Source of the DNA: Lachnospiraceae bacterium
GTDB lineage: Bacteria; Bacillota; Clostridia; Lachnospirales; Lachnospiraceae
Assembly: GCA_017470935.1 (NCBI GenBank)
Contig: JAFUXG010000051.1
Location: forward strand, 1 to 56,489
Direction: 5' to 3'
Length of the DNA stretch: 56,489 nucleotides
Each line of letters opens with the position of its first letter. The first letter of the stretch is position 1. The translations under genes were made by a program, and so were the position numbers. Below are positions 3,283-30,747 of this stretch, one piece after another. Under the pieces are notes generated by a model. The model saw only the letters and a program-made list of their open reading frames with translations. It searched no databases and was not told where the DNA came from.

Positions 3283-3297
3283 TATATTGAGGTGGAA

Positions 3298-7565: not shown

Positions 7566-7573
7566 GAGAGGTT

Positions 7574-9644: not shown

Positions 9645-9678
9645 AATGAATATTTATTTTATTGAGGAGTACCTATAG

Positions 9679-10392: not shown

Positions 10393-10457
10393 TAAATATA
10401 TTATTCATTTAGTGTGTTTATTTAAGTGAATACTTGTTCGGAAAGGAGAATTTTATT

Positions 10458-11726: not shown

Positions 11727-11854
11727 ATAGAAATTAATAGAAATTAATCTATGAAAAATTAATTTAATAGTAGACAAAACCATAAAAATACAGTATTATA
11801 TTATGCAACTAAAAATATTTATTTGCGAAGATTACTGTGTGGTGGTTAATTGTT

Positions 11855-12796
11855 ATGAATAAGAATGGTAAACTGGTTTGCAGTTCTTTATGTAATTTAA
11901 TTGTTGCTATTATATTGGTTTTTATGAGCTTTAATAGAGTAGTTGCATCTGGTATCGACTCTTCTTCAAAGGTAAATTACCAGTATGATGAATTGGGCAG
12001 GATTAGAAGTGCTACATATATTGATGGTTCTGTATTCGAATATAATTATGATGACAATGGTAATATTATTTCTATAATAATTAAAAGAAATGATGATAAA
12101 ACAGATGGTGATAAAGAAAAGCTTGATAAAGATACAACATCAACAGAAGAAAAAAACCAAGATAAAACAACAGAAAAGGTGACAGAGAAGACAACTGAAG
12201 AGACGCCTGTAACGACAACAGAAAATGTTATGGAAACGGCGACGGAAGAGACGTCTAGAACAACAACTGAAAGGATAACAGAAAAGTCATCTGAAGGAAC
12301 AGCGGATAATAGGTCAGAACAAGCTTCAGGACAGATTATAAATGGTGCAGAAGAAAAAGTAATAGAAGTTGATGATAAGCATACTATATCTGATGGTGTT
12401 GAACATAGTGTAGAGCTTAAACTTGAAAAAGAAGCAGGCGTGGATATAGATAATATTTCCCAGTTGAATTTCAAGAAAAAACGTCCGGTAATCAAATCCT
12501 TTAAATTAATAAAAAAGAAAGGAAAAAGATACTTACGAATACAATTGAGAAAATTGGTAACAAAGGGTGAATATCAGGAAATTGGCTATCAAATCAGATA
12601 TTCAGATAATTCAAAATTCAAAAAATCTAAAACATTATTCGTGAAAAGAAATAGTAAAAAAAATATAACAACTAAAAAATGGAAGACTAAGAAAAGTAAA
12701 TCATATTATGTTAAAGTAAGAGCATATATAATCACAAAATCACGAAAGAAAATATACAGTCGTTATAGCAGGGTGAGGAAAATAATATTGCAATAA
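11855..12796 (+). CDS. Secreted protein with a YD-repeat pair, Thr-rich linker and FN3-like end
   Basis: The product has 313 residues from ATG 11855; an upstream in-frame start at 11837 is less likely. A signal peptide (VAIILVFMSF, cleavage near VVA-SG) is followed by two YD/Rhs-type repeats, YQYDELGRIRSATYIDGS and YNYDDNGNIIS, at about residues 42-75. A Thr/Glu-rich linker of roughly 90 residues comes next (about residues 80-165), then a Lys-rich C-terminal region ending in a fibronectin-like strand pattern (SYYVKVRAYI). It ends in front of a strong terminator. YD repeats normally occur in large shells, so a minimal pair in a small secreted protein beside a Rhs array is unusual. Function unknown. 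Confidence 0.7.
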   Translation: MNKNGKLVCSSLCNLIVAIILVFMSFNRVVASGIDSSSKVNYQYDELGRIRSATYIDGSVFEYNYDDNGNIISIIIKRNDDKTDGDKEKLDKDTTSTEEKNQDKTTEKVTEKTTEETPVTTTENVMETATEETSRTTTERITEKSSEGTADNRSEQASGQIINGAEEKVIEVDDKHTISDGVEHSVELKLEKEAGVDIDNISQLNFKKKRPVIKSFKLIKKKGKRYLRIQLRKLVTKGEYQEIGYQIRYSDNSKFKKSKTLFVKRNSKKNITTKKWKTKKSKSYYVKVRAYIITKSRKKIYSRYSRVRKIILQ

Positions 12797-12869: not shown

Positions 12870-12933
12870 GTTAATAGCTTAAAACACCGATATACAATAT
12901 AGATACGTAGGTTTTATGGGCAGGTGAGTGTAT

Positions 12934-13353
12934 ATGAGAAGGAATAAGGGATTTACATTAGTTGAACTCGTTGTGGTTCTTATTATAATTGCCATACTTG
13001 CGGCTGCAGTAGGACCTGCGCTTTTGGGATATATTGATAAAGCAAAGGAGAATGAGACTCTTAATAATGCAAAGAAGATGTATCTTGCTGCACAGTCTAT
13101 AATCGATCAGGCTCATTCAGATTTGGTGGATCCAAAGACCAGGGTAACGGCTGATAGGATGTCGGAGATTACCCTGATGGATATAACAGATGGCAGTGAG
13201 CCATATAAGATCACTTATAAGACTAACTCCTTTGACAGTACTAATCCAAGTAAATCAATGTATATTATTGAGAGGTTTACTTATGACGAGGGCGCTTACA
13301 GGGCTAAGTATGAAAGAAGCACAGGAAAGTGGGAGGTCATTTCACTTGAATAG
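12934..13353 (+). CDS. Type IV prepilin (small, first gene of the pilus locus)
   Basis: The product has 139 residues. The N-terminus MRRNKG/FTLVELVVVLIIIAI is a textbook class III signal: short basic leader, Gly before the cut, Phe at +1 and Glu at +5, then the membrane helix. A short soluble domain follows (IIDQAHSDLVDPKTRV, YERSTGKWEV) without a cysteine pair. ATG 12934 is chosen over GTG 12928; AGGTGAG precedes it. The prepilin peptidase encoded at 26213-27064 should cut after the Gly. It is probably a minor or initiating pilin, with the giant pilin gene 103 bp downstream. Confidence 0.85.
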   Translation: MRRNKGFTLVELVVVLIIIAILAAAVGPALLGYIDKAKENETLNNAKKMYLAAQSIIDQAHSDLVDPKTRVTADRMSEITLMDITDGSEPYKITYKTNSFDSTNPSKSMYIIERFTYDEGAYRAKYERSTGKWEVISLE

Positions 13354-13456
13354 CTGAATGATATTTTCTATAGATTATTGATGAAGGATATTATATACGA
13401 ACCTTAATGGTGCATAAGGTATAAGATGGTGGTAGATGAATAAAGGCGGTGACTGT

Positions 13457-16400
13457 ATGATGAAATCAGCAAACATTGTTAAGGATAATATTAATAGAGG
13501 CAGAAGGAATTCCGGATTTACTCTGGTGGAAATGATCATAGTGCTCACTATTATAGCTATTATGATGAGTGCTGCTGTGTGGGGAGTTACAGGCTGGATA
13601 GCCCATTATGAATACATAAGCAGTGAAGAGAAGGCAAGAACTGTATATATGGCAGCCCAGTCTGCGTTATCTGCTGCAGAGAGCCGTGGGACTCTTGATG
13701 ACTGCATTGAAGATATCAGAAAGGAAATGAAGAATAATAATACACTGTTTGAAGGAACAGATGTGACAGGTCTTTCAAAGGATACATACGGAATACCGGA
13801 TGTTAAGGACAACGAGGGCAATGAACACTATTACGGATACCTTTCTGTGTCAAAGGGCGATTATGAAGCCTTGGCAGAAGGGGCTCATAATGCTTTGTTT
13901 GATCTGCTTGAAACATATGTGACTGATACAGAGCAGTTAAATGGCTCTATTGTTATTGAATTTGACCTTACAGCAGGTAAGGTCTATTCTGCATTTTACA
14001 GCGGATGGGCTTCGTCGATCTCCTATGATGACAGCCTGGCAAGTGTTGAGCGTGGTAATTTCTACATAACAAAGGATCACAGGACACCTGAATACCGTGA
14101 GGACTATGAAGTGGGCTATTTTGGTGCTGACCAGGTCAATGTGGTAGAGCTTGACAGCTCCTTCGAGCTTAAGGTTGATGAGTGTATGCTTCATAATGAA
14201 GAGACGCTTTACCTTACCATGAATTCGACTTCGTTAAGTGCTGATACGGATACGGTATTTAATGTAGAGCTTCGGGATGCTCCAACAGAGGATAATGCCG
14301 GCAATAAGCTATGCTCCTTCCCTGTTGACTGGACTATGGTCCAGGATGTGAATCCCGGTGAGAAAAAGCGTGTGGAGATTGACGTGAAGGATGCTTCCGA
14401 CGCTGATATGGGCAAGTATGCATTTATATTATCATATGATGTGGAAGTTAATGCTGAAGGAGAGACCAAAAGAACATTTAATGTAACTCTTGATGCTTTA
14501 AATACTAGTGAGACCATGGCAGGTCTTAATGTTATTGATGAAAATGGAAGAACAGATCTAAGAGGCTATAGTATTACCCGTCTTCTGGGAGTAATTCCTA
14601 AGGATATTATAGCAAGAGTTTCTGTGGAGCCGGCTGATTCTGCTGTTATTCAGTATGCTGCCGGAAGCTATCTTGATTCAAATCCACATAATGATCTTTT
14701 TAAAACAAAAGAGGATGGCGGTAAATATGCCGCTGATACTTCTGCATTTGAGATTGATAAATGCAGACATTTATCCAACATCCGTTATGTTGAGGAATAT
14801 GAGATCAATGGTGTGTCCCATACCTATGCTCTTGCCGGGGACATTGATTGGAAGGATGGTAAGATATACAGCCTGATTCCGGGTGAGGATGAAGCTATTG
14901 ATAAGGTGGCTGATGCACCTTCGGGTACAGGATATTCATCAGAGGATGAAGGCTACAAATCCCTTGATACAACAAAGATAGGATTTCCTATGATAACAAA
15001 GCTTAATACAGGAAGTGTTTTTGATGGAGAAGGATATCAGATATCTGGTCTTTTGCTCAATAACAGCAGCAGTGTTGTTTACGAGAGGAATGCTGACGGC
15101 ACCCTGAAGAATTCTGTCCTTGTCAATTCATCAAAGACCCTGGGGCTTTTCGGAACCAATAGAGGAATGATCAGGAGACTTATTATAAGGTCGGCAAAGG
15201 AAACTGCTCTTTCTGCTGAGGAATTTGCTGATAAAGCCGGTGGTGAGAGGAACAGTGCAGTATATTCTGACACATTAGAAGCAGCCGGTATTATATGCGG
15301 CAGAAGTGAAGGCTATATGAGGGAGCTTTACTTTGATAAGGATTGTTCTGTTTCTGCAAATGTTTATGCCAATCTGGATGACGAGGAAGAGGCAAGAGCA
15401 AAGGCTTTGTCCTTTGATACTGATACCACATCATATGTTAAAGATGTCCATGAGAACCAGATATATGGATGTGGCGTTGGTATGGTATCGGGTACTGTTT
15501 TACTTAATGATAATGTGTCCTTTGACCGTATCCGTACATCAGGTAAGGTTACGGGACGGATTGCAAGTAAGGATAGCAGCATTTCTCTTGAAACTCCTGC
15601 GGTCTCTGATTCAGAGGGCAGAACAAAGATATATAATGAAGATGATAAGGCACAGGGGAAGTATACCAATGCACAGTGCTATGCCTATGGTATCGGCGGT
15701 GTGTTTGGATATGTGTATGGCGGTGAATTCAAGGAGGATTCTGTTAAGTCGGGTATAGGAATCGGTGGGAATGAGGTTGCTGCTAATTCAACTCTTCCTT
15801 CTGATGATGCAAGCGGTGCAGGCTATCTTCCTATGTATGAACGCGTGGAGATAAGTGATACTGAGACAGATAAGGACGGTAATACAGTTACAGTAACTAA
15901 GCTTGTTCCAAGCACTGATGAGAATGACAACCTGTTCAGGGATTGGACTTCTGAATCCATTGTCAATAAGGCGGATGTTGAAGGTGAAGCATTTACAGGC
16001 GGTATTGTGGGCAATATATGTATTTCGGGTCTTTCAGACAATAAGTCTTTAGAAACAGATGGAGACGGAGATATTACGATTCCTAACAAGAAGAAAAAGG
16101 CGATCGCCCAGATAGTGAACTGTTATAATTATGGCGATACAAAGGGATTAGACTTTGTGGGCGGTATTGTTGGTGTCAACGGTGAGGGTGGATATATAAG
16201 AGAGTGTGTGTCCTATGGAAGCCCTACAGCTGATAATGGAGTGTCTGCAGGTATAACCTCAGAGAATTTCGGATATATTGCCGACTGCAGGATAGACAGG
16301 GCGCCTGCGGATGAGGATAATGATAACAAACCATATGTTCCAGAGATATCAGGCAATATGCTTGTGGCAGGAGCAATCACATCTGTTAACCATACGGATT

Positions 16401-19400
16401 GTGTTGTGTATAACTGCAAGTGCGCGGTTACGGATGTTGGAGGCGTTGATGATAAGATCTGTATTACCGGTGACAGCATGGACACCTTTGGATATATTGT
16501 GGGACGCAATGATGGTGTTGTTAACGGCGGCATATCAGGACAATATCTTGGATATAAGTCAGATAAGACCAAGATAATCATTGGCGGTGCGGTGGGTACT
16601 AATGATCATATTGTGAAAAATGTTACCGTTACCTTTGATCTTGTGGATAGAAAGCAGGCCGAGACGATAGGCGGTATTGTGGGTCTTAATCAGGGCGATA
16701 TCAAGAGCTGTATATTTGGCGGCAATATTGTAAAGACAGTTCACAGTGCTGCGGGAATGACTATAGGGGGAATTGCGGCTAAGAATGGCAATGTTAATTC
16801 AAGTGGTGCAGTTGAATATACAGGCAATATAGTGGATTGTTATCTTATAGGTTCTGTGCTGGATGTTAAGGGAACAGGTAACTTTGTTGATACATCAACG
16901 GATGCCGGCAAGATATCAGGAAGCTCTGCTGTTGGAGGGGTATGTGGTATCAATTATGAAGGTTCTGCGATAGATAACTGTCATGCCGCAAGCCTTAGGG
17001 ATGCAGGTGGCAGTATCGTCAAAAGTAATGGGCTTAATGTTGTCAACGGTATGGCAGGCGGTATATGTGCTGTCAATTTTGGAATGATCAGGGAATGCGG
17101 ATATTCAACAAAGGTATTTGTTAACGAACAGGGTGCTATTGAAGCTGATTCTAAGTCTTCAGGATCTGATAAGGATATGGATTTTGCAGCTAAGGCATTT
17201 ACTAAGCTTGAAGCTATCAGTGACAAAGATCTTGCAGCGACAAGGGCAGCTGTGAAAGCTCTTAATGAAATGTTTGTTGATGACAGTAAGGGTGAATTGA
17301 CTTCTAAAGCCAAGGAGTTATTGGGAGACATACCTGCACCGGGCTTTGAAGAGGATGATGAGACTTATATATATGCCCTCCCTAAGGGAGAATATGATGT
17401 TTCTTCCAATGATTACATTATATCCATGGGCAATAAGGAAATTGGAAGGACTGGTGGAATAGGATACATTGGCGGTATCGTGGGTTATAATTGTTCTTCG
17501 GGCAGTGTGAAGAAATGTGCTTCAGGCAAGTGGGTCGTAGAAAACTATCTGCCAAAGGTACAGTATAATGCCACCGGTGGAGTTATAGGGTGGAATGCAG
17601 CCGACTCGGATAATGTGGGATATAATATCAATTTTGCCTATGTCAGAAATGAGCTTCCAAAGGTGCCTGATTCAGCAATCAATGGAAGTGGCCAGGCGAC
17701 TGACAAGAACTATAATAATAACTTCTATTACGTGGGCGGCGTCATAGGCACACAGGCTAATGCCGACAGTCCTAAGTGGACGGTAGAGAAATGTATCAAT
17801 GTGGGAACAGTGCTCAATTATTACGGTAACAATTCAGGCGGAGTGCTGTGCCAGGTAAGAGGAACAGGCGGAACCATACAGTATTGCTACAATTATGGTT
17901 TTATAATGGCTGGTTATACAAAATCATATGGAAGCGGCTATAGTGGTACCGGCGGCGGCATTGTTGCACACTACACAGAGCTTATGCCGGACCAAACAAA
18001 CAATGTGCTTCATTGCCAGAATCATGGTGTTATAACATTTCCTATGCAGGGACTTGATTATGACACATGTATCATTCATGACAAGCTGGGTAACATGACT
18101 GCTAATGATACGGGAGGAATAGTAGGAGAAATCTCTGCTCCTCAGAAGAGCTCTCTGTATGTTGTCAGAATCGAGGATTGTGTTAATGGTGCCAGTGCCA
18201 GAGTGTATGCTAATTCTAAGGCGGCGGGAATCCTTGGTACCATAGGATGTTTTGCAAAGGATGGAGTGGAGGACACACTTACTGTTAACAGTATTACAGT
18301 AGTTATTGACACATGCCGTAATTATTCTTCACAATTATGGAGTTCCCAGGGAGCTGCTGTTAATTCTGCATACAAGAGAAATGCAGGTGGTATTTTATCC
18401 GGCAGAAGACCATATGCAGCAGGTGAGAAGCCGGGTTATACAAGTGTACAGAATTGTTTCAGCGTGAGAATGTATGGTTTTAATTCCGGAGGAGCGGTTG
18501 ATACATCCAATGTGGGTGGAAGAATTGGTTATTATAAGTCAGGCAGTGGTAATGATGCCCAGAATAAAGAGCCTTACCGTTATTATGGTAATAACTACTA
18601 CATAGATGACTATACATTTCAGTATTCGTCAACAAGAGGAAGAATACAGAAGTCAGGATTTTTGTTTGCCACAAGTAATATACGTTCTGATATTAATAAC
18701 AATTATGATACATCAGTTAATGCATTTATTTCTGAATCAGAGCCCTCTGATAAGGTTGCCCTTGCAACGGGTTCAAGTGTTAATAGTATTGATGTCATAA
18801 GTAAGCATATTATTTCATACAGAATATATTCCGTTGCCTATGGTGAGGGATATAAGAATTATGCATTTATAAGGGAACCGGATAATTATAATATTGCTTC
18901 ATTAAATGAAAAAAATGCATGGATAGACGGTGATTATGTATGTATATATACCAAGGATGAAGGTGTTATAAAATATCCTGTTCTCTTCAAATATACAGAA
19001 TCGGGAGAAAGTGCACCTTATAGTGTTAATCTGTTAAGCCATCCTTATTTTGACAGATTACAAAAGGGCAAATTATCAGATGATGATATGAAGGAATATG
19101 CTTCTAAGGTGGGAGTATCCAGATTGCCGTACTCTGATGAGTATGATATGGATTATTTTGATCTTGATTGTGATTTCGTGGATTATATAGATGCATATAA
19201 GAAGGAGCTTCTCAATAATCCGGATATTATTAAGAATGTGAATATTGCCAAGCATAATGATACCGGCAACTATTACATCAGCTGGGATGTTGAGGGACAG
19301 AATGGACGCAGTGCAACAGCTACAAGGTTTGATGTCGAACTTCGTTACTATGCAATCCCGGACGCAGAGATACAGGCATCAGGATTTGATATTAATAAAA

Positions 19401-22400
19401 TAGATGACGACAATGATGCAGATGAATATAGGGATAAAGGATATCTTGTAAAGACAGAGTATAAGTCTGCTGATTCTACCACTACAACATTGGTTCCACC
19501 TTCTGATTTCGATTTTGATTCAGGCAATAGATTTTATGTTGTTGCAAGAGTGAAGGATGCCCGTGCAGGAGATACAGGGTATAGTGAGCTGGAGGATAAG
19601 ACGGTTGTGGACGCAGAAAGCGGTGAAGAGACAACTATACAGAGCTATGCTGAATTAGAGCCAAAGCTTCCTGCGCCGAAGTTCGAGATTGTTTCTTATA
19701 AGGGCAAGTGGATGCTCCATCTCAAAAACCCTGAACGCTTTACCAAGTATATCGGAAGGGAAGGCTTTGAGGTTGGCGTATATAAGCTTAGCGGTAACAA
19801 CGTTAAGAACAATTATATCAAGCTTACAGCTGACAATATTATCAACACTGCAGGCGGTAATGCTGAGGATCAGCTGCTTAACAATGCCATCGCTGTCAGT
19901 TCGGCTTATTCTAACGGTAATGCAAATCAGGAGTTCTACTGCTATGCCACTGCATCAGGATGTCTTGATTCAGATAACGAGAGATATACTGTATATATTC
20001 CGAAGGACAGCAACCCGGCGAATATTGATTATACCCTTACGGCGGCTGATGGCGGGGATCATTTAAATGATGGAGATAAGAAGCCTGCATATAGCGGTGT
20101 GTTGTCATACAATATGTATAACAAGTCAGGCAATACCGTCATAGTTCCGCCTATAGCCCAGATATTCAAGGTGGAGCTTTACGGAGTCAAGAAAGAAATC
20201 CGCGAAGATGGTAATGAGGTCATATGGCATGAGACACTTGCTTCACATGAATATTCAATGTCAGTGGAAGATACTGAGAATGTGAATATAGGATATTATG
20301 ATGTTCCAAGCAGTATTAATCTTAATGATTATGACAGCTTTGGTGTTGATTACTGGTATGCTGCTACAGGACAGGGTGAGGTATATAACTACTTTGAGAC
20401 CACCAAGGAGAGAGCTGACAGATCTGTGCGCCCGTCCGGATTCATTACAGATGTTTCGGAAGCTCCATCAAAGCCTGTATATTATTTCCATTCCATCAAG
20501 CTTAAGGCTCCTCAGGTGGAGATAGTATGTATGGAAAGAGATCCTGTTAAATGGTATGCAAGACTGCTTAATCCTGAGGATTACTTCGGAAGCGGGGCTA
20601 AGATATATGTTAACAACAATAACAGTGTCTATATTGACACATCAGATACCAGCCTTATAGGGGATGTTCTGCCATATGCAGTTAACATCGGCTCGGGCAA
20701 CAGCAGCCGGTATTTCACTGCCAAATCTGACGGATGCTATGATTCGGTTCAGGTTTACTATGGAAATATCAACAAAACTGTATATGCCCAGGGTAATCTT
20801 CAGAACTATATAAATGTAAGCTATGATCTTAGCTGTGATACATTTGCCGATGAGAATGGCGAGGTGTCGGAGGGTTCATTTACCCTTGATAAGGATAACA
20901 ATCTGTCATTTAGGGGAACGTTGCAATACAATTCCCACAATAATATCGGACAGTATTACAGAATTGAATTATATGCAAGGGATAAGGATGAGCAGGAGGT
21001 TACCCTTTATCTCAGCGATGATACTCCTATGGAAATGGGAAGTGTTAACAATAGCTTCAAGACCAGTGTTCCAATTGCCATTGATATTAAGGGAGATGAT
21101 GAGAAGGTCGATGTTTCAAAATATCACGATTTCCATGTAGCTGTATGGTATTCCAATGCAGACCTGAATTCCTCTGATAAAGCAGAGAAGGATCATGGAT
21201 TTGCCCAGTATTTTAAAATACCTGAAAAGACGGCTAAGCTTTCAGCTTCTTATGATGAAGACAAGAATCTGTTTTTTGACGCAAGAGCCCACGGTATATT
21301 AATAGATATAAGTGAAGGTGAGGATAAGCCGGTCTATTATTATGTGGCACCTCTTGCTGATACAAAATATGGTGACACAGTCAAATATCCTAAGTACGTA
21401 CTATATAGAGAGGCATCAGAAACTGTTTCAATGATCAGGAAGGACGCAGAGGGGAATGACATTATCAGTAATTCCGGAACCAAGGTGCTTTGGGAGATGT
21501 ATCCTAATTATTATGGTGGCGACATTGAATGTGATGTTAATATTAAGGTATATGAGAGGGCTAATACATTAGAAGCGCCGACTATGGCAGAGCTCATGGA
21601 AAGTACTCCTTTCTATGAGGTTACCAAGACAGGAAAGAGTCCTTACTTTGTTAAAGAGGAAGAGGATAAGGAATTTGACTGGAGCGGTAATAATTATTAT
21701 GCGTTAGTTCGTGTTAAGGACAGCGGTGTTGCAGGTGATGAGGCGTATAGTGATTATACAATGGTGACAATGGTCAAGGGGCTTGCTAAGCCGAAGATTA
21801 CAGTTCTTGCTTTAGGCGGCAATCAGATGTTTGTTCATCTTGATAACTATAAGGATTATGAGGGTTATGACAATGTAACGGTATATGTTGAATTAGAGGG
21901 CAGAAATGGTAATTCCACAAAGCCATATGAGATTTCACTTGACAGTGAATCATGGCCGGCTGTTAACGGCATTCCGATTGAATACAGTGTGAAGAGGGAT
22001 TCGCATAATATTAAGGGTGGAAAGACCACATCACTTGTAGCATATGCAAAGCAGAAGGAGCCTGAGACAGGTGAGGTAATACTGGAAAGTATTTCTGACT
22101 ATAAGAAGACAATATACATGCCGTACTGGAATGAGCCTGTTCCGAACAATATGAATATCGGAATTGCCAATCCTGCCTTTGAAGTAAGTGCGGATAATAC
22201 ATCCGTTCATTATAGTGCAGATATTTCCTTCAACTGTACAAATGCTGATTATCTGCCGGAGGTTCCCCAGGGCTTTACGGTTGCGCTTGTTGGCACACCG
22301 AATCCAAGTGTGGATGGGTATCAGAGACCTACAATACTGACAAGAACAGAGGATGATTATCTGATATTTGAACCAAATGAGACAAAGAATGTAGATATCA

Positions 22401-22654
22401 CTCTTTCACTTGACAGCTCGGTAAAACTTAATGCTTATAAGGATATATATGTATATATCTGGTATTCTTATGATGGAATCAGCGGATGTACAAAGCAGGA
22501 ATATGAGATTTCGCAGGATGTGTTTGATACTTATAAGAAGAGCAAGGCTGGTATCACTGTGGATTACACTAATGGAACGTCAGGGCCAAGGTATTTCTAT
22601 GAAAGAGCATTTAATGACGGATCAAGAGGATATGGCAGGACAAAGATTAAGTGA
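13457..22654 (+). CDS. Giant modular prepilin (about 3065 residues) with GLUG-type repeats, putative pilus-tip adhesin
   Basis: The N-terminus has a normal prepilin signal: basic leader with RRNSG/FTLVEMIIVLTIIAIM, Glu at +5. ATG 13457 follows AAAGGCGGTGA; ATG 13436 in frame is an alternative. After a pilin-like helix, a very large ectodomain follows. From about residue 500 to 1700 it carries many GLUG-type motifs (AFTGGIVGN, DFVGGIVGVN, IGGIVGLNQGD, YIGGIVGYN, NDTGGIVGEI), as in bacterial surface adhesins. The last third (from about residue 2075) has at least three related modules, each opening with a P-x-hydrophobic strand followed by a KWMLHLKNPERF-like segment. There is no sortase signal or second membrane helix, so the prepilin helix is the only visible anchor. 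Ordinary pilins have 150-200 residues. It is probably assembled as a tip or minor pilin; ligand unknown. Confidence 0.85.
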   Translation: MMKSANIVKDNINRGRRNSGFTLVEMIIVLTIIAIMMSAAVWGVTGWIAHYEYISSEEKARTVYMAAQSALSAAESRGTLDDCIEDIRKEMKNNNTLFEGTDVTGLSKDTYGIPDVKDNEGNEHYYGYLSVSKGDYEALAEGAHNALFDLLETYVTDTEQLNGSIVIEFDLTAGKVYSAFYSGWASSISYDDSLASVERGNFYITKDHRTPEYREDYEVGYFGADQVNVVELDSSFELKVDECMLHNEETLYLTMNSTSLSADTDTVFNVELRDAPTEDNAGNKLCSFPVDWTMVQDVNPGEKKRVEIDVKDASDADMGKYAFILSYDVEVNAEGETKRTFNVTLDALNTSETMAGLNVIDENGRTDLRGYSITRLLGVIPKDIIARVSVEPADSAVIQYAAGSYLDSNPHNDLFKTKEDGGKYAADTSAFEIDKCRHLSNIRYVEEYEINGVSHTYALAGDIDWKDGKIYSLIPGEDEAIDKVADAPSGTGYSSEDEGYKSLDTTKIGFPMITKLNTGSVFDGEGYQISGLLLNNSSSVVYERNADGTLKNSVLVNSSKTLGLFGTNRGMIRRLIIRSAKETALSAEEFADKAGGERNSAVYSDTLEAAGIICGRSEGYMRELYFDKDCSVSANVYANLDDEEEARAKALSFDTDTTSYVKDVHENQIYGCGVGMVSGTVLLNDNVSFDRIRTSGKVTGRIASKDSSISLETPAVSDSEGRTKIYNEDDKAQGKYTNAQCYAYGIGGVFGYVYGGEFKEDSVKSGIGIGGNEVAANSTLPSDDASGAGYLPMYERVEISDTETDKDGNTVTVTKLVPSTDENDNLFRDWTSESIVNKADVEGEAFTGGIVGNICISGLSDNKSLETDGDGDITIPNKKKKAIAQIVNCYNYGDTKGLDFVGGIVGVNGEGGYIRECVSYGSPTADNGVSAGITSENFGYIADCRIDRAPADEDNDNKPYVPEISGNMLVAGAITSVNHTDCVVYNCKCAVTDVGGVDDKICITGDSMDTFGYIVGRNDGVVNGGISGQYLGYKSDKTKIIIGGAVGTNDHIVKNVTVTFDLVDRKQAETIGGIVGLNQGDIKSCIFGGNIVKTVHSAAGMTIGGIAAKNGNVNSSGAVEYTGNIVDCYLIGSVLDVKGTGNFVDTSTDAGKISGSSAVGGVCGINYEGSAIDNCHAASLRDAGGSIVKSNGLNVVNGMAGGICAVNFGMIRECGYSTKVFVNEQGAIEADSKSSGSDKDMDFAAKAFTKLEAISDKDLAATRAAVKALNEMFVDDSKGELTSKAKELLGDIPAPGFEEDDETYIYALPKGEYDVSSNDYIISMGNKEIGRTGGIGYIGGIVGYNCSSGSVKKCASGKWVVENYLPKVQYNATGGVIGWNAADSDNVGYNINFAYVRNELPKVPDSAINGSGQATDKNYNNNFYYVGGVIGTQANADSPKWTVEKCINVGTVLNYYGNNSGGVLCQVRGTGGTIQYCYNYGFIMAGYTKSYGSGYSGTGGGIVAHYTELMPDQTNNVLHCQNHGVITFPMQGLDYDTCIIHDKLGNMTANDTGGIVGEISAPQKSSLYVVRIEDCVNGASARVYANSKAAGILGTIGCFAKDGVEDTLTVNSITVVIDTCRNYSSQLWSSQGAAVNSAYKRNAGGILSGRRPYAAGEKPGYTSVQNCFSVRMYGFNSGGAVDTSNVGGRIGYYKSGSGNDAQNKEPYRYYGNNYYIDDYTFQYSSTRGRIQKSGFLFATSNIRSDINNNYDTSVNAFISESEPSDKVALATGSSVNSIDVISKHIISYRIYSVAYGEGYKNYAFIREPDNYNIASLNEKNAWIDGDYVCIYTKDEGVIKYPVLFKYTESGESAPYSVNLLSHPYFDRLQKGKLSDDDMKEYASKVGVSRLPYSDEYDMDYFDLDCDFVDYIDAYKKELLNNPDIIKNVNIAKHNDTGNYYISWDVEGQNGRSATATRFDVELRYYAIPDAEIQASGFDINKIDDDNDADEYRDKGYLVKTEYKSADSTTTTLVPPSDFDFDSGNRFYVVARVKDARAGDTGYSELEDKTVVDAESGEETTIQSYAELEPKLPAPKFEIVSYKGKWMLHLKNPERFTKYIGREGFEVGVYKLSGNNVKNNYIKLTADNIINTAGGNAEDQLLNNAIAVSSAYSNGNANQEFYCYATASGCLDSDNERYTVYIPKDSNPANIDYTLTAADGGDHLNDGDKKPAYSGVLSYNMYNKSGNTVIVPPIAQIFKVELYGVKKEIREDGNEVIWHETLASHEYSMSVEDTENVNIGYYDVPSSINLNDYDSFGVDYWYAATGQGEVYNYFETTKERADRSVRPSGFITDVSEAPSKPVYYFHSIKLKAPQVEIVCMERDPVKWYARLLNPEDYFGSGAKIYVNNNNSVYIDTSDTSLIGDVLPYAVNIGSGNSSRYFTAKSDGCYDSVQVYYGNINKTVYAQGNLQNYINVSYDLSCDTFADENGEVSEGSFTLDKDNNLSFRGTLQYNSHNNIGQYYRIELYARDKDEQEVTLYLSDDTPMEMGSVNNSFKTSVPIAIDIKGDDEKVDVSKYHDFHVAVWYSNADLNSSDKAEKDHGFAQYFKIPEKTAKLSASYDEDKNLFFDARAHGILIDISEGEDKPVYYYVAPLADTKYGDTVKYPKYVLYREASETVSMIRKDAEGNDIISNSGTKVLWEMYPNYYGGDIECDVNIKVYERANTLEAPTMAELMESTPFYEVTKTGKSPYFVKEEEDKEFDWSGNNYYALVRVKDSGVAGDEAYSDYTMVTMVKGLAKPKITVLALGGNQMFVHLDNYKDYEGYDNVTVYVELEGRNGNSTKPYEISLDSESWPAVNGIPIEYSVKRDSHNIKGGKTTSLVAYAKQKEPETGEVILESISDYKKTIYMPYWNEPVPNNMNIGIANPAFEVSADNTSVHYSADISFNCTNADYLPEVPQGFTVALVGTPNPSVDGYQRPTILTRTEDDYLIFEPNETKNVDITLSLDSSVKLNAYKDIYVYIWYSYDGISGCTKQEYEISQDVFDTYKKSKAGITVDYTNGTSGPRYFYERAFNDGSRGYGRTKIK

Positions 22655-22704: not shown

Positions 22705-23220
22705 ATGGGAAGTGCAGATTTAAAAAAATCACAACTTCATAAAAGACGTAACCGCGGTGCCGCCATGATCGTGGTGGTCTGCGTTATGGCAGTGGTGATG
22801 ATCCTATCCCTTACTCTTATTATGGCGGCGTACCAGATGTTAGCCACAGTAAGTGACGAGGGCAGGGATGAGGTATATTATCAGCAGGTAATGTCATTCT
22901 CAAAGGTCTTAAGGCAGAGGCTTGAGGATAATGGTGCTGCAGGTGCGGGCTCAGATTCTCTTATAGACCATATTAATAAATTTATGACAGATGAGGCCTA
23001 TAAGGATGCTGACACAGAAGCTTTAGAAGCGGCAGCACCAACAAGCGATGGAGTGTATGGAAGTATAACCCTTGTTCTTGATAAGAAGTCTTCCCATGGA
23101 AATCTTGTTGTTACCATATCCGTTGCTGATGGAAATACAACAATGTCCTCCTGCACATGCAAGTATGAGGTGCATGAGGAGGCAGGAGCTGTTAAATACA
23201 CATTTAAGGGTTATTATTAA
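22705..23220 (+). CDS. PilX-like minor pilin lacking Glu5
   Basis: The product has 171 residues. The leader ends KRRNRG/AAMIVVVCVMAVVMI: a basic class III-like signal with Gly before the likely cut, but no Glu at +5, as in PilX/GspK-type minor pilins that sit at the pilus tip. A small soluble domain follows, with an acidic stretch and a C-terminal beta part (VTISVADGNTTMSSCTCKYEV). GAGGGTG precedes ATG 22705. It lies 50 bp behind the giant pilin gene and before two further minor pilins, a common order for a tip complex. Confidence 0.7.
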   Translation: MGSADLKKSQLHKRRNRGAAMIVVVCVMAVVMILSLTLIMAAYQMLATVSDEGRDEVYYQQVMSFSKVLRQRLEDNGAAGAGSDSLIDHINKFMTDEAYKDADTEALEAAAPTSDGVYGSITLVLDKKSSHGNLVVTISVADGNTTMSSCTCKYEVHEEAGAVKYTFKGYY

Positions 23221-23313
23221 TATTGATTTGGAATCTATACAATAATAAAAAATATATGGTTTTGAAGAATATCACGATTGTCTGATGTGGAACTGTAATG
23301 GGAGGTGGCGTGT

Positions 23314-23706
23314 GTGAAAAAGAAGCGTAACAGAGGAATGACAATGGTTGAGATAATAGTGGCATTTGTTATGCTGACCCTTGTTATGGGTATCTCATAC
23401 AGCAGTATCCGGTTTGCATCTAACCTTACTAAGGAGGCTGCAGATGTAGACAGGAGAAATGAAAGGTTTCAAAGTGCGGTAGCTGAATATTATAGGAATG
23501 AAGATAATTATAAAAAGGCTTCCACATCCAATACCACATATTCATTTGTGGGTAAAAATGAAGATGGCTCAACTAACGGACCATACACCTTCAGTATAAA
23601 GACGACAAGCCAATCATTTAAGTATGATGGGGTGATATATGTTCCAACAGCAGATACAACAGGGGATAATGTCCGCAATATATTTCTTTTTTCCACGGAT
23701 GATTGA
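23314..23706 (+). CDS. Type IV minor prepilin
   Basis: The product has 130 residues. VKKKRNRG/MTMVEIIVAFVMLTLVMG is a class III signal with Glu at +5, of the PilV/GspI-like type. GTG 23314 is chosen because GGGAGGTGG lies 5 bases upstream; GTG 23305 is a weaker alternative that overlaps that site. The soluble part is short and ends in a beta-rich stretch. It is likely one of the minor pilins that prime assembly. Confidence 0.75.
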   Translation: MKKKRNRGMTMVEIIVAFVMLTLVMGISYSSIRFASNLTKEAADVDRRNERFQSAVAEYYRNEDNYKKASTSNTTYSFVGKNEDGSTNGPYTFSIKTTSQSFKYDGVIYVPTADTTGDNVRNIFLFSTDD

Positions 23707-23847
23707 TAATTTTGCATAGATATTTCATAGAGATTTTATGCAGCAGAATGTGATGGGCTCGTGCCTGTATGAAGGATCGGCATATTCACGAATTAATACA
23801 TGAAAATGATACCTGGCATGGAAAACAGCCGAAAGGCAGGGATGTAT

Positions 23848-24708
23848 ATGAGTAATTATAGTAATGAAAAAAAGCATATAAAGAAATCGCATAATGAGAA
23901 AAGGAAAAACCGTGGTGTGACCATGGTTGAGCTCATTGTGTCCTTTGCACTGCTGTCCATATTTCTGGTGACTGCAACCATGTGCATTTCCCATGCGGTC
24001 ATTTTCCATTACAGTGAAAGACAGACCATGAGCGCCTATTCGGTGGCAGATATTGTTTTTTCTGAGATCAAGGATGAGCTGAGAACCATGCAGAGCTCTG
24101 ACTACTATGGATATGTAAAGATCAGGGAAAAGAGTGCCTCAGATGGCAGGCTGGTTGCTGTTGCAGAAAATGGAGGCGTATACGAAGGAACGACCATTGA
24201 GTTTGTTGCCTCAAATATTAACAATGGCGCCAATGCTGTCTTACTTGATACGGAGGGGTGCACCTGTGCATTGATCAATAAGGATGGGGTGGTTAAGGAT
24301 AATATTGATAATATTAAGGATGGTTATCTTACACTAAGGTATTATTCCCGCTACAGGGAAACGAAGATGGCTGGCTATGAAAAGCTATATATGGATCAGA
24401 TCATGATGGGAAGCTCTGCAGAGGCATCTAATAACTATAACGAAATAATAGGCAATAAGGTCGTATGGCATGCGGAGGAGAAGCTTCCGGTACAGCTGTA
24501 TCAGGATTATACGGTTTCACTTAAATTTTCAGTCCATCCCACTATAGATAGTGAGGGCAATAAGGTTGTTAACTTTGTTGATGTAAGTGTATCAGTGAAT
24601 GATGCCGATGGTGAAGTGTATCAGAAAAGCAGAAGGGTGGAGCTGCAAAATACTGTATATTATGAGACGGGTAATACGCTATACAGTGACGGACCCGCCT
24701 CGCCGTGA
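23848..24708 (+). CDS. Type IV minor prepilin, PilW-like size
   Basis: The product has 286 residues. The leader is unusually long (about 24 residues, Lys-rich) and ends KRKNRG/VTMVELIVSFALLSIFLV with Glu at +5. The soluble domain of about 240 residues fits the larger PilW/GspJ-like minor pilins. ATG 23848 follows AGGCAGGGA; upstream in-frame ATGs at 23842 and 23800 are possible. It is the last gene before the 377-bp gap ahead of the major pilin. Confidence 0.75.
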   Translation: MSNYSNEKKHIKKSHNEKRKNRGVTMVELIVSFALLSIFLVTATMCISHAVIFHYSERQTMSAYSVADIVFSEIKDELRTMQSSDYYGYVKIREKSASDGRLVAVAENGGVYEGTTIEFVASNINNGANAVLLDTEGCTCALINKDGVVKDNIDNIKDGYLTLRYYSRYRETKMAGYEKLYMDQIMMGSSAEASNNYNEIIGNKVVWHAEEKLPVQLYQDYTVSLKFSVHPTIDSEGNKVVNFVDVSVSVNDADGEVYQKSRRVELQNTVYYETGNTLYSDGPASP

Positions 24709-25085: not shown

Positions 25086-25595
25086 ATGAAGAAGAGATTA
25101 GAGGAATTAAGGAAGGATCAGAAGGGTTTTACTCTTGTTGAGTTGATTGTTGTATTGGTAATTCTTGCGATTCTTGCTGCGCTACTTGTTCCTGCACTTC
25201 TTGGTTACATAGACAGGGCAAGAAGTTCAAAGTATCTAGAGGAGGCAAGATCTATCTATACGGCTATTCAGGCTGTTAATGATGAGAAGTATGCAAAAGC
25301 AGAGGCACCACTTGGTCAGCTTGAAACATTTGCAACTGATCATTCGGTTAACAAGTTAGTTACTCCTACTGTATGTAAAAAGGCTTATATTACTAGTAAA
25401 TCTAATGCATATACTAGCGGCGATAAAAATAATTATGTAGTTCAATCTCTTGATTTATACTTTCAATCACAAGACAATAAATTTATTGTGATTAAAATGA
25501 CTAATGGTGATTGGAATACAGATGATGTTGGAGTTTTTGATGCTGAATCTGCTGTTGAGTTACCAAGTACATTAAGTGCTAGTAGCGGTTCTTGA
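25086..25595 (+). CDS. pilA: Major type IV prepilin (PilA/PilE-like)
   Basis: The product has 169 residues. MKKRLEELRKDQKG/FTLVELIVVLVILAILAALL is a perfect class III signal with Glu at +5, followed by the long helix (ALLGYIDRARSSKYLEEARSIYTAIQAV) and a Ser/Thr-rich soluble domain. A strong AGAAGGAGG site, its own promoter and a terminator right behind it set it apart from the other pilin genes. This is the pattern expected for the abundant shaft subunit. The name pilA is by role; orthology was not tested. Confidence 0.8.
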   Translation: MKKRLEELRKDQKGFTLVELIVVLVILAILAALLVPALLGYIDRARSSKYLEEARSIYTAIQAVNDEKYAKAEAPLGQLETFATDHSVNKLVTPTVCKKAYITSKSNAYTSGDKNNYVVQSLDLYFQSQDNKFIVIKMTNGDWNTDDVGVFDAESAVELPSTLSASSGS

Positions 25596-26212: not shown

Positions 26213-27064
26213 ATGACAGTTTTTTTATATATATTGGCAATAATACTTGCATGGATGATAGGCTCTGTGGGCTTTTCATTTGTTAATACAATGGCCTATA
26301 GATTTCCCAGACAGAAAAAGATATTAAAGGAGCATTTCTGCTGTGATTTATGCGAGACACAGATTAAAGCATATGAGGCAGTGCCTGTATTCTCCTATCT
26401 TTTTCTAAAGGGCAGGTGCAGATATTGCGGAGAGCCTTTGGTGAAGAGGGATTTTGTTAATGAGATCATAGGTGGTTTTGCCGGTCTGCTGATCTTTTTC
26501 AGATTCGGTGACATCAGTGATATTTCATCATCATTTATATTATCTTCACCAATTGATATTGTTGTTCACTTTAATTTATGGAAGCTTATAACCCTGCTAA
26601 TATTATTACTGATGTATTGTGTTCTGGATTTGGTTATTCTTGTGGATCATGATACAATGGAAATACCCAACAGATTTGTTATTGTTATGTTATATATTGC
26701 AGTGGCAGCCATGGTCTTTGTTCCGGGCGTGAGTCTTGTGTCACATATCATCGGTGCAGTATGCATAAGTGTACCAATGTTTTTGATCACTCTTGCCATA
26801 CCTGGTGCCTTTGGGGGCGGGGATATTAAGCTTGTGGCAGCAGTAGGATTAATGCTTGGCTGGAAGCTGACGCTTATAGGTTTTTTGATAGGATTGTTAT
26901 TAGGCGGAATATACGGAATCATACAGCTTATAACAAAGAAAAAGGGAAAGAAGGAGCATTTTCCATTTGGCCCATTTCTCTGTATTGGTTTTATGACTGC
27001 AGTAATATGTGGTATGGATATAATAAATGCATATATTAAATTAGCTGCATTTATACATGGTTGA
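26213..27064 (+). CDS. pilD: Type IV prepilin peptidase (A24 family)
   Basis: The product has 283 residues of a multi-pass membrane aspartic protease that cuts and usually N-methylates prepilins. The N-terminal domain has the two zinc-type CxxC pairs (CDLC near residue 43 and CRYC near 66). The catalytic aspartates lie in VILVDHDTMEIPNRF (first Asp region) and GGGDIKL (near residue 203). Length and layout match PilD/GspO/ComC. All prepilins of this locus would be its substrates. Confidence 0.9.
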   Translation: MTVFLYILAIILAWMIGSVGFSFVNTMAYRFPRQKKILKEHFCCDLCETQIKAYEAVPVFSYLFLKGRCRYCGEPLVKRDFVNEIIGGFAGLLIFFRFGDISDISSSFILSSPIDIVVHFNLWKLITLLILLLMYCVLDLVILVDHDTMEIPNRFVIVMLYIAVAAMVFVPGVSLVSHIIGAVCISVPMFLITLAIPGAFGGGDIKLVAAVGLMLGWKLTLIGFLIGLLLGGIYGIIQLITKKKGKKEHFPFGPFLCIGFMTAVICGMDIINAYIKLAAFIHG

Positions 27065-27173: not shown

Positions 27174-28370
27174 ATGCCCAATTTCAAATACAAGGCTCAG
27201 AATGCAGAGGGGGCAATTGTAACAGGGGTATTGGCTGCTGCTGACGAACAGGATCTGCATGAGCGGTTAAAACAGAGAAAATTGATGATGCTTGATGCCA
27301 GGAATCTTACGAAAACAGCTAATTACAAGCCTCTTAAGGCAAAGGCGCTGGCTGAGTATGCAAGGCAGATAGGAACCCTGATGCGTGCAGGAATCCCATT
27401 GGTGCGCTGCCTTCAGATGCTATCTGAGGATGAGGCAGTAACTCCTTATGAGCGCAAGATCTATAAGGACGTTACAAGAGAGGTCATGCAGGGTGTTCCC
27501 CTTTCTAATGCCATGGAGTCAATGAAGGGTGTATTTCCCCAGCTCATTATTAATATGTTCAGGGCTTCTGAATCCAGTGGCGGGCTTGATGATACTGCAC
27601 TACGTGTTGCCAATCAGTACACAAAGGAAGACAGGCTGAATGCCAAGGTCAAGGGTGCCATGACATATCCTAAGATATTGGGTGGATTGATAGTTTTGGT
27701 TGTGGCTGTGATCTTTGGCTTTGTAATGCCACAGTTTGATTCTTTGTTTGAATCAATGCCTGTATTACCATTGCCCACCCGTGTAATGCTTGCCATTAGT
27801 GATTTTGTGGTGAAATATTGGGCAGCACTTATGATAGGAGCCATAGTAATATTTTTACTTGTGTATTTTCTTAAAAAGCTTCCTTCTGTGTGCTATGTTC
27901 TTGATAGGATACAGATTCACATTCCTAAGTTTGGAAAGCTTTTTAAGGTTATATATACTGCCAGATTTGCAAGAACACTGAGTTCATTATATTCAGCTGG
28001 TATTCCTATTATTTCCTGTCTTGATATTGCCAGTAAGACCATTGGAAATCTATACATTGAGAGACAGTTCAAGCAGGTTATAGCAGATACCACATCCGGC
28101 GAATCCTTGAGTAATGCAATAGGCAAGGTTGATGGCTTTGTGAAGAAGATAGAATCATCAATTCGCGTGGGAGAGGAAGCAGGATCATTGGATACAATGC
28201 TTGATTCCATTGCGGATGATATGGAATTTGAATCTGAACGGGCAATCGGACAGATGGTTGCATACCTCGAGCCTGTGATGATTGTTGTAATGGCTGCTAT
28301 TGTGGGCTTCATTATGATTTCGGTTATTGTACCTATCTATCAGTCATATCAGCAGATTGGAGCTAGCTGA
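27174..28370 (+). CDS. pilC: Type IV pilus inner-membrane platform protein PilC (GspF family)
   Basis: The product has 398 residues, the usual length. Two GspF domains are visible: ALAEYARQIGTLMRAGIPLVRCLQ (about residues 56-80) and FARTLSSLYSAGIPIISCLDIA (about 263-285). Each is followed by membrane segments (ILGGLIVLVVAVIFGFVMP; VMIVVMAAIVGFIMISVIVP). It forms the membrane platform on which the PilB ATPase acts. GGGAGG precedes ATG 27174. Confidence 0.92.
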   Translation: MPNFKYKAQNAEGAIVTGVLAAADEQDLHERLKQRKLMMLDARNLTKTANYKPLKAKALAEYARQIGTLMRAGIPLVRCLQMLSEDEAVTPYERKIYKDVTREVMQGVPLSNAMESMKGVFPQLIINMFRASESSGGLDDTALRVANQYTKEDRLNAKVKGAMTYPKILGGLIVLVVAVIFGFVMPQFDSLFESMPVLPLPTRVMLAISDFVVKYWAALMIGAIVIFLLVYFLKKLPSVCYVLDRIQIHIPKFGKLFKVIYTARFARTLSSLYSAGIPIISCLDIASKTIGNLYIERQFKQVIADTTSGESLSNAIGKVDGFVKKIESSIRVGEEAGSLDTMLDSIADDMEFESERAIGQMVAYLEPVMIVVMAAIVGFIMISVIVPIYQSYQQIGAS

Positions 28371-28442: not shown

Positions 28443-29912
28443 ATGGCATATACTGTTTATTTGTCAAATACGGATATTGAAGTAATAAAGGGACGCAGCG
28501 ATGGCAAGGGTGTTTCTGTCAGTCATGTATATTCTGAACAGATGCCTGAGGGGAGCTTTTTAAATGGTGTTATCACTGATGCTGAGGGCGTGGAATATGC
28601 GCTGTCCAGTATGTGGAAAAAGTATAAGCTTCCCAAGAAGGGAGTCAGGCTTGTAATCAATACGCCACAGATTTCTGTCAGAGTGCTTGATATGCCAATT
28701 ATGTCACAGAGCAAGGCGGATATATATCTGCAGCGTGAATTTGAGGAGCGCAGTGGAGAGCGAAGGCGGCTGCTAGGTTTTTATGTTCTTAATAAGAATA
28801 ATAAGACAAAGACCATGAAGGTATGTACAGAGCTTGCGGATGTGGATTTTATTGCGAATTATGTTAATGTTTTCGCACACGCAGGGATAGAATTGACAGA
28901 GATCAACAGTGGTATCGGTGTTTCAGTTAATTTCCTCAAGAGATTAAGCTTTGCTGTGGATACCAACTGTGTTGTTATGCTTCGTGATGGAATGACTGTC
29001 ACTGCTATCTATCTTGTTAAGGGTGAGTATTTCTATTCCACCACTGCAAGAACCTTTAATAATCCCGGAACACTTGAATTTGCAAGTGAGATTTCCAACA
29101 CGGTAAGCCAGATTGAACAGTTTTCAAAATCCCAGAACGTGGAGGATCCTATATCAAGAATATATCTTGGTGGTATGACAATAGAGGATTCCACTAACGT
29201 GGAGAGAGCTGTGTCAATGAATCTATCAGAGGATATAGTTGTATTTAATATAAGTGTTATGCGTGGTGTGAGCTTCAGCTATTCTACGGATTCCCTGGAT
29301 GCTTTGTTCTATCCTACTGCAGGTATCATGACTCTTTCAGACCATTGGAATCTTCTTAAGATGTATGGAAAGGGAGAGGTTGTTGATAATGAGAAGCGTT
29401 CAAGGATGATCAAGCTGGCGATACCGTATGCTGCTGTATTTTTGTTAATGCTGATAATTACGGTGGCGAGGGCGGTTTCTTACTCTAATAAAAAGCATAA
29501 ATTTGATGAGCTTAATGATTACAACACTAATATATCAAATATTATGGGTGCTGCAGAGTATGATGAGGCTGCGGCTAAGGTTTCACTGTACAGTGACCAT
29601 GTTAATGGCTTGAGACTTCTTGAGACCAACATTGACAGCTATCCATTGCCGAAGGATGAGATCAATAGGGTGATCGAGCGTGCGGCGGTTGGACTTGGAG
29701 ATGTTACGATAGACAGCTATGATGCTTATAAGGGAGTAGTTGGCGTAACTGCCAAATTTGCAGAGGTTGATACAGTTAATACATTTATAGACCGTCTTGA
29801 TGCTGAGGACTGCTTCTATGAGATCAATTATACAGGATATTCTGAAATAAATGCTTCAGGACAGTGGGTAGCCAATCTGGAATGCATTCTTTCAGAAAAT
29901 GCAGGGAGGTGA
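28443..29912 (+). CDS. PilM-PilN-like fusion protein
   Basis: The product has 489 residues. The first 310 residues have the character of a PilM-type actin-like ATPase (LVINTPQISVRVLDMP; NSGIGVSVNFLKRL; a late ISRIYLGGMTIE strand-Gly motif). They are followed by one membrane helix (about 325-345, AIPYAAVFLLMLIITVARAV). A PilN-like domain of about 145 residues comes after it, with a coiled start and a ferredoxin-like C-terminal part (VGVTAKFAEVDTVNTFIDRL). PilM and PilN are usually separate; here both parts are in one frame without a break. The nucleotide-binding residues are not obvious, so ATP binding is uncertain. It lies between pilC and the pilO-like gene, where pilM and pilN are expected. 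Confidence 0.7.
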   Translation: MAYTVYLSNTDIEVIKGRSDGKGVSVSHVYSEQMPEGSFLNGVITDAEGVEYALSSMWKKYKLPKKGVRLVINTPQISVRVLDMPIMSQSKADIYLQREFEERSGERRRLLGFYVLNKNNKTKTMKVCTELADVDFIANYVNVFAHAGIELTEINSGIGVSVNFLKRLSFAVDTNCVVMLRDGMTVTAIYLVKGEYFYSTTARTFNNPGTLEFASEISNTVSQIEQFSKSQNVEDPISRIYLGGMTIEDSTNVERAVSMNLSEDIVVFNISVMRGVSFSYSTDSLDALFYPTAGIMTLSDHWNLLKMYGKGEVVDNEKRSRMIKLAIPYAAVFLLMLIITVARAVSYSNKKHKFDELNDYNTNISNIMGAAEYDEAAAKVSLYSDHVNGLRLLETNIDSYPLPKDEINRVIERAAVGLGDVTIDSYDAYKGVVGVTAKFAEVDTVNTFIDRLDAEDCFYEINYTGYSEINASGQWVANLECILSENAGR

Positions 29913-29916
29913 GCAT

Positions 29917-30747
29917 ATGGCAACGGGAATTACAGCTAGAGATAAGAAATTATTATATATGCTTGGTATTATTGTCATTGTATCCTTGTTTTATATTATA
30001 GGGATAAGACCTCTTAACAGAAGGATCACTAAGCTTGAGGATAAGATCGATGATGCACAGGTTGAGCACGATACGATCAAGATGAAGCTGTATCAGCTGG
30101 ATATGATCACTGATTTTAAGGAAAGTGCAGAGGCTATGGCTGATAAGCTTTCTTCAAGATATTATGACAGTATGGTTCCGGCTGATGTGGATAAGCTGAT
30201 AACCAATAAGGCATTGGGCTACGGATTAAAGATTAATAACCTGGGCATACAGACAGGTAAAGAACCGGCTAATGTGCTGGCATATGTGAATTCAGAGGCA
30301 TTTGCGGCACAGCAGAGGGCTATCGAGGCTGCGGAGAGCAGTGCTGACAGCGTGGCTGATTCAGAAGCATCAGAGGATGCTGCTTCTTCAGTAAGTGATG
30401 ATATGGTGGATATTGATGTTCTTGCTTCCATTAATCAGGAGTCTGGAATTTATGAGGTGGCAGACACAACATCTGCAGAGGTGTATATTACCTCAATGGT
30501 ATTAGATGTATACGGACCCCATGATAAAGCCCAGTCACTTCTTGATGACATTATTAACGACAAGGCTTTGCGTGTCACATCCTATCAGTGGACGGATATG
30601 ACAACCCTTCCGTATCAGTATGTAAATGGAGAGCTGGTACAGGTTGAACAGGAAAGCGGTAACAGATTGGTTATTAATTTTGACCTGTATATGTATGATG
30701 GATCAGATTTCAAAGCAATGGCAAAGCAGGACCAGGAAGGAAAGTGA
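29917..30747 (+). CDS. pilO: PilO-like type IV pilus alignment protein
   Basis: The product has 276 residues: one membrane helix near the N-terminus (LLYMLGIIVIVSLFYIIGIR), a coiled coil (about 35-70), an Ala/Ser/Asp/Glu-rich linker (about 128-160) and a C-terminal ferredoxin-like part (AEVYITSMVLDVYGPHDKAQ). ATG 29917 follows GGGAGGTGAG and lies 4 bp behind the end of the preceding gene. In known systems PilO pairs with PilN to connect the cytoplasmic ATPase ring to the pilus platform. Confidence 0.7.
   Translation: MATGITARDKKLLYMLGIIVIVSLFYIIGIRPLNRRITKLEDKIDDAQVEHDTIKMKLYQLDMITDFKESAEAMADKLSSRYYDSMVPADVDKLITNKALGYGLKINNLGIQTGKEPANVLAYVNSEAFAAQQRAIEAAESSADSVADSEASEDAASSVSDDMVDIDVLASINQESGIYEVADTTSAEVYITSMVLDVYGPHDKAQSLLDDIINDKALRVTSYQWTDMTTLPYQYVNGELVQVEQESGNRLVINFDLYMYDGSDFKAMAKQDQEGK

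Follow-up and report, generated by a model that had tools for sequence, protein, structure and literature searches.

A giant prepilin with GLUG-type repeats in a Lachnospiraceae pilus operon, a candidate tip arm in the H position of the minor-pilin complex

To our knowledge, little is known about the tips of monoderm type IV pili and about how these filaments reach past a thick cell wall. The locus described here, from a Lachnospiraceae bacterium, raises the question in a pointed form: what role could a prepilin about twenty times the usual length play in a pilus operon? The window, that is, the whole stretch of 56,489 nucleotides that was analysed, belongs to an assembly of 75 contigs that is 77.75% complete. 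Our answer, to which we assign a probability of roughly 0.6, is that the giant is a minor pilin of the tip complex in the H position, that of GspH, PilH and ComGD, and bears a huge ectodomain, which would serve as a tip arm, adhesin or grapple.

An earlier note, made from the sequence alone, had described a prepilin of about 3065 residues, and the frame bears this out: positions 13436-22654 are open for 3072 codons, which gives 3065 amino acids if translation begins at 13457. This start is probable because AAAGGCGGTGA, near the ribosome-binding consensus, sits directly 5' of it. After the predicted cut behind G20, the mature protein would have 3045 residues, with a computed mass of 333.5 kDa and a computed pI of 4.6; the note's estimate of some twenty times pilin size therefore stands for the predicted mature form. 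That such a frame is an artefact of assembly or frame calling is very unlikely, almost to the point of being negligible, because six other genomes carry complete giants that are 42-47% identical and isolate records hold similarly long ones; the same records rule out a chance frame. Two further genomes have giants truncated at contig ends. The isolate records concern distant giants in Eubacterium sp. MSJ-21 (2215 aa), Cuneatibacter sp. NSJ-177 (1464 aa) and Robinsoniella peoriensis WT (at least 3565 aa).

The distribution of the giants is broad across the order and uneven within the genus. A protein search of 79 genomes, the source included, gave matches in 19, some of them through ordinary pilins only. 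Of the 25 further genomes in the genus, 8 have giants, a patchy distribution; near-complete genomes that have pilins and gave no giant match, such as G009, are among the others. Eight giants that were read are 42-47% identical to that of the window over long alignments, seven from the genus and one (G027) from the family, and the most divergent giant within the genus (G010) has parts with about 24% identity. The note had proposed a search for homologues with the same signal. When 294 genomes of the order, the source included, were searched with a pilin-module profile, at least 29 proved to have a matching frame no shorter than 1000 aa; these giant prepilin frames measure 1177-4121 aa and are spread over five family codes, and an N_methyl match was found in 160 of the 294 genomes. 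We read the giants of 26 of these genomes, leaving out G195, G250 and G339. Most of the named relatives are uncultured Lachnospiraceae, and the titles of several point to rumen samples. The size that the note called extreme is so against published modular pilins, but it is not unusual among the giant's own relatives.

The N-terminal part of the protein comprises three features:

13457..13516, + strand: class III leader peptide, residues 1-20, ending RRNSG (translation; N_methyl and GFxxxE matches)
13517..14125, + strand: pilin module, residues 21-223 (modelled long helix 23-76 and globular head; profile alignment with small pilins)
14126..14164, + strand: joint between pilin head and ectodomain, residues 224-236 (stretch 226-234 poor in pLDDT; small pilins end here)

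The leader is hydrophilic and ends in glycine, and it is followed by a hydrophobic tract with Glu5. The class III motif RRNSG/FTLVE, as read in the note, scores 31.6 bits with Pfam (cut-off 21.2) and 26.4 bits with NCBIfam (cut-off 16.3). A model of residues 1-1180, built on an alignment of 21 sequences (mean pLDDT 76.6, pTM 0.72), places a long alpha-1 helix on a beta-sheet head at residues 23-223, that is, a type IV pilin fold predicted with moderate confidence. Comparison of the pilin module with solved structures gave no match past the module's first part. The glutamate E5 and other residues of the module are invariant across 16 diverse giants.

The giant lies within a set of genes that would encode a pilus machine:

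12928..13353, + strand: small prepilin of major-pilin type, directly upstream of the giant (N_methyl 38.5 bits)
22705..23220, + strand: K-type minor prepilin without Glu at +5 (GAAMIVVV; sequence, scripted scan)
23305..23706, + strand: I-type minor prepilin (GMTMVE; N_methyl 25.4 bits)
23800..24708, + strand: J-type minor prepilin (GVTMVE; N_methyl 26.3 bits)
25086..25595, + strand: probable major pilin (N_methyl 40.7 bits; best NCBIfam match GspG, under cut-off)
26213..27064, + strand: prepilin peptidase PilD (A24_N_bact and Peptidase_A24 over cut-off)
27174..28370, + strand: platform protein PilC/GspF (GspF 305.7 bits, under the equivalog cut-off of 424)
28443..29912, + strand: PilM-like membrane subcomplex protein (TIGR01175 27.6 bits, under cut-off)
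29899..30747, + strand: GspM/PilO-like membrane subcomplex protein (T2SSM 33.1 bits, cut-off 27.8)
30752..32602, + strand: extension ATPase PilB (PF00437 412.7 bits)

The note's statement that the giant is encoded with minor pilins is borne out, and the remainder of a pilus machine follows them. The names K, I and J were assigned by gene order and signal rather than by profiles over cut-off, and the K-type prepilin has no family match over cut-off. The start of PilB at 30752 was set by comparison with relatives (MKLR), its frame opening at 30626. PilB also has a cyclic-di-GMP-binding domain of the MshE type (61.1 bits, cut-off 38), and c-di-GMP may therefore regulate the extension of the pilus. 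A single-helix membrane protein of 153 residues with no family match is encoded at positions 25691-26152, after the major pilin and before PilD; genes of similar size occupy the same place in several relatives. PilT scored over cut-off in 12 of the 13 giant-bearing genomes searched, the source genome, in which it was not found and which is 77.75% complete, being one of the 13; in five genomes (G010, G037, G040, G069 and G073) it lies on the giant's own contig. At the start of the window, positions 1-12796 form a low-GC stretch (0.27-0.38) with repeated ORFs resembling YD/RHS C-terminal ends, each preceding small putative membrane proteins. It looks like an array of Rhs-type cassettes, PF05593 having been run on 11837-12796 only.

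Which pilin position does the giant occupy? The available profiles leave the matter to other evidence: GspH gives 21.9 bits (cut-off 80) and ComGD 16.4 bits (cut-off 70), both profiles are of other lineages, and other pilin profiles fit as well or better. An H assignment by this route fails. The gene neighbourhood is more informative. In a scripted scan of 54 giants, from which 7 without a visible downstream flank were left out, a prepilin gene lacking E5, and thus K-type-like, was found within 4 kb of 46 of the 47 giants with visible downstream flanks, and both E5-lacking and E5-bearing prepilin genes within 4 kb of 45 of these 47; four 8-kb stretches of the window, taken as a control, gave 0, 1, 1 and 1 matches. 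The two exceptions are L093, which has no prepilin neighbours, and G073, which has the K type only in 594 visible bases. Two non-prepilin ORFs over 1000 aa (in L097 and L105), a 517-residue fragment (L071) and further short fragments (L056, L057 and L078) had been dropped before counting. L051-L056 were left out as presumed duplicates of genomes already counted, the only overlap removed between the two genome collections. In L107, the scan counted an I-type prepilin with Ser5 as E5-lacking and missed the real K-type gene, which is present. The minor pilins lie upstream of the giant in G029, L069, L070, L072, L073, L076, L098, L100 and L105. Ser or Thr replaces Glu at +5 in the I-position prepilin of the distant relatives L048, L067 and L107, and also of L075, L080, L082 and L083. 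Since the I-position gene is without Glu5 in L075, L080 and three other relatives, E5 alone cannot separate K from I.

Variations on this arrangement were also noted. In G005 (L035 and L036), the giant-K-I-J run is separated from the major pilin by a number of unrelated genes, which include a long set of two-component type. In G027 (L039:14664-18301), the I- and J-type pilins are enlarged too, to 579 and 629 aa; other tip subunits can therefore gain modules as well. The 2633-residue prepilin of G336 (L093) fits neither the GLUG nor the K-I-J pattern; it was counted as an exception and is perhaps a different kind of giant pilin.

A second line of evidence comes from a plain pilin of 210-215 aa found in four loci (L075, L080, L082 and L083, the first two nearly identical), which ends in GYYGLD or GYYGLE and then a stop, at the point where the giant's ectodomain begins. 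These four pilins directly precede the K-type gene and further minor pilins (E5-lacking, then E5-lacking or E5-bearing); PilB lies just upstream, in a gene order unlike that of the window. A profile of the giant's pilin module (32 sequences) matches the four plain pilins over the whole length (E 1.2e-43), and still does so with the first 30 residues removed (E 1.3e-33). Against K, I, J and major pilins the match is confined to the first 20-65 residues, and removal of the first 30 leaves nothing convincing, which rules out a major, I, J or K identity of the module. We conclude that assignment to the H position is the probable one, on the grounds of gene order and of the plain small pilin. The plain pilins form one group (100/100) that lies among the giants in a tree that is unrooted and has several long branches; from such a tree no direction of change between plain and giant pilins is drawn.

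The same evidence bears on whether the protein belongs to a pilus at all. It could be a surface protein that PilD processes and that never joins pili, remaining in the membrane or wall or being released by proteolytic cleavage. Incorporation of the giant is a prediction, and its 333 kDa far exceed the S. sanguinis modular pilin of solved structure (454 residues; PMC8179133). We nevertheless consider this account unlikely, given the invariance of E5 and other pilin-module residues in diverse giants, the conservation of the K-I-J neighbourhood and the small pilin that relatives have in its place. The last two of these observations lend indirect support to the tip position that the note had proposed.

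Beyond the joint, the ectodomain is built from the following parts:

14168..14524, + strand: first ectodomain, a predicted beta-sandwich, residues about 238-356 (model)
14744..18556, + strand: putative GLUG beta-solenoid, residues about 430-1700 (model to 1180, motifs 848-1553, invariant columns)
16919..16987, + strand: GLUG unit over the Pfam cut-off (22.8 bits against 20.5)
19235..19636, + strand: C-terminal module A1, residues about 1927-2060
19673..20491, + strand: C-terminal module B1, residues about 2073-2345
20507..21346, + strand: C-terminal module B2, residues about 2351-2630
21374..21766, + strand: C-terminal module A2, residues about 2640-2770
21788..22621, + strand: C-terminal module B3, residues about 2778-3055

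The borders of the five C-terminal modules are approximate and come from profile self-comparison. We read the run of short strands that the model places beyond the beta-sandwich as a beta-solenoid, which probably ends near residue 1700. Twelve GGIVG-type motifs span residues 848 to 1553, where 200 shuffles gave 0.6 on average and never more than 3. One unit exceeds the gathering score of PF07581 in the six-frame scan and a second remains under it (18.6 bits, cut-off 20.5), although the whole-protein hmmscan found no Glug at E<=1. The repeats reported in the note are thus real, and with a non-pilus module following the pilin module the protein has the make-up of a modular pilin. Upstream of the motifs, R437, H438, L439, N441 and R443 of an RHLxNxR element (437-443) are invariant in 20 diverse giants, and R, H and N of what is presumably the same element in 19 further ones. 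GLUG motifs are enriched in all giants read from the 26 order genomes except G336; their counts beat every shuffle in 9 of 9 giants of one set and in 19 of 20 of another, where L093 is the exception. Pfam Glug at E<=0.01 was matched in 4 of 20 and 8 of 19 giants of two sets, so most giants escape the Pfam model. Another GLUG-like protein occurs in the source genome (G000:C39:55853-56212; frame of 1875 aa), with two units under cut-off.

The C-terminal third runs roughly in the order A1-B1-B2-A2-B3, which confirms by self-comparison the three or more modules that the note had counted. Structure prediction by segments, which the note had recommended, gave the model of residues 1-1180 described above and, for the C-terminal part, a poor one built on 6 sequences (pLDDT 61, pTM 0.36). 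A Foldseek search with the former returned nothing at E 0.001, its weak matches including immunoglobulin folds and IgA1 proteases.

Could the ectodomain be an enzyme? GLUG repeats are shared with M26 IgA1 proteases, the N-terminal model fits such proteases weakly (E 0.08-0.38), and Peptidase_M26_N (E<=0.01) turned up once in a set of 20 giants and twice in a set of 19, that of the window not among them. The zinc-binding HExxH motif of the M26 enzymes was found neither in the window's giant nor anywhere in a scan of 60 giant sequences, a number that includes near-duplicates and fragments, and Pfam and NCBIfam recognise no catalytic domain in the window's giant. The protease reading was rejected on this account, and we give little credence to a surface peptidase or other enzyme.

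The same Pfam and NCBIfam searches recognise no binding domain in the window's giant either, and PF05567 (PilC/PilY1) gave no match at E<=1; PilY1 was not matched in 13 genomes, control genomes being equally silent. A CBM2 domain is present in the giant of one other genus genome (G010, L044; 39.7 bits, cut-off 24), presumably the one giant with CBM_2 at E<=0.01 among the 39 scanned in two sets, the window's included. CBM_5_12 in G069, F5/8C in L067 and CBM_2 in L061 stay under cut-off. Of the note's proposal of a pilus-tip adhesin, the tip position has indirect support; no binding domain was recognised in the window's protein. The targets it suggested, mucin, plant fibre or other cells, receive no support from this protein, the single CBM2 belonging to another species. 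Adhesion is still the likeliest use of the giant in our judgement.

The ectodomain could alternatively be structural and non-adhesive, as a rigid spacer that takes the tip complex through a thick wall or S-layer or as the head of a short secretion pseudopilus. A solenoid makes a good spacer, and the PilB, PilC and GspM-like genes resemble parts of type II secretion as well. We regard this as quite improbable: the ectodomain is absent from four close systems with the same pilins and from most genus genomes, giant lengths of 1343-4121 aa are odd for a wall of fixed thickness, and one giant contains the CBM2 domain.

Precedents for an adhesive minor pilin exist in monoderm bacteria. S. sanguinis PilB is an adhesive modular minor pilin with a vWA module, and PilC of the same species carries a lectin-type module (PMC8179133). 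These proteins share with the giant the class III signal, the pilin module in first place and an extra C-terminal module, as well as the standing of a minor pilin of a monoderm pilus and likely adhesin, which for the giant is predicted; the giant differs in being more than six times as long as S. sanguinis PilB, in having a GLUG solenoid and repeated unknown modules instead of vWA or lectin modules, and in sitting with K-, I- and J-type pilins. The survey in that paper gives as its most extreme multi-domain case a protein of 860 residues, with 12 copies of one motif (PMC8179133).

The novelty of the giant must be judged with some care. We take IPR011493 to be the GLUG entry, and the architecture IPR012902-IPR011493 to be a pilin with GLUG. 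This architecture is mentioned in the S. sanguinis PilB survey (PMC8179133), and GLUG pilins may therefore already be in its dataset. In the literature searched, which lay mainly outside subscription journals, no paper on giant GLUG pilins stood among the matches listed, and the titles and abstracts on GLUG and pilins describe no such protein. We therefore regard the giant as a conserved variation on the modular pilins already known, extreme in size and tied to one minor-pilin position.

Tip complexes offer a further frame of comparison. Published ones are a PilHIJK complex, which lies at the tip and is capped by a subunit without Glu5 (PMC10191384), and a ComGD-F-E-G complex (PMC12153270). 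The giant shares with GspH, PilH/FimU and ComGD the operon position beside K-, I- and J-type pilins and, in relatives, a plain form of 210-215 aa; it differs in its huge ectodomain, and neither the GspH nor the ComGD profile matches it over cut-off. Its proposed role, that of a large modular adhesin at the pilus tip, is the one filled in diderms by PilC/PilY1, which is a separate non-pilin protein with a beta-propeller, whereas the arm of the giant is fused to the pilin. GLUG surface proteins and M26 IgA1 proteases have GLUG repeats and a beta-solenoid in common with the giant, but not its prepilin signal, nor does the giant have their HExxH. Ruminococcal pili have been linked to cellulose (PMC6916266, PMC3672088).

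As a minor pilin in the H position, the giant would be inserted by Sec and cut by PilD after G20, with the helix holding the mature protein in the membrane. Together with the K-, I- and J-type minor pilins it would form the complex from which the filament begins and which remains at the filament's tip, and the ectodomain of about 2,800 residues (beta-sandwich, GLUG beta-solenoid and repeated modules) would travel outward as a long tip arm. The arm could serve as an adhesin or grapple; in those relatives that have PilT, this protein could pull on it. We speculate further, at somewhat short of even odds, that this gut-bacterial order holds a class of monoderm pili in which a giant GLUG-solenoid H-pilin provides a built-in tip arm in the role of PilY1, and that the arm is acquired or discarded in one piece, at a fixed joint behind the GYYG motif of the pilin head; such pili would therefore alternate between armed and plain tips in evolution.

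If this reading is true, the filament-starting complex of many gut and rumen bacteria includes a pilin with an inbuilt arm of one to four thousand residues. The plain pilin that ends at the joint is a natural control for the arm, and removal of the arm at this joint should leave the pilus intact and reveal the arm's ligand. Altogether, the occurrence of giants across the order beside the same three small pilin genes suggests a very long arm at the pilus tip, which is probably sticky.
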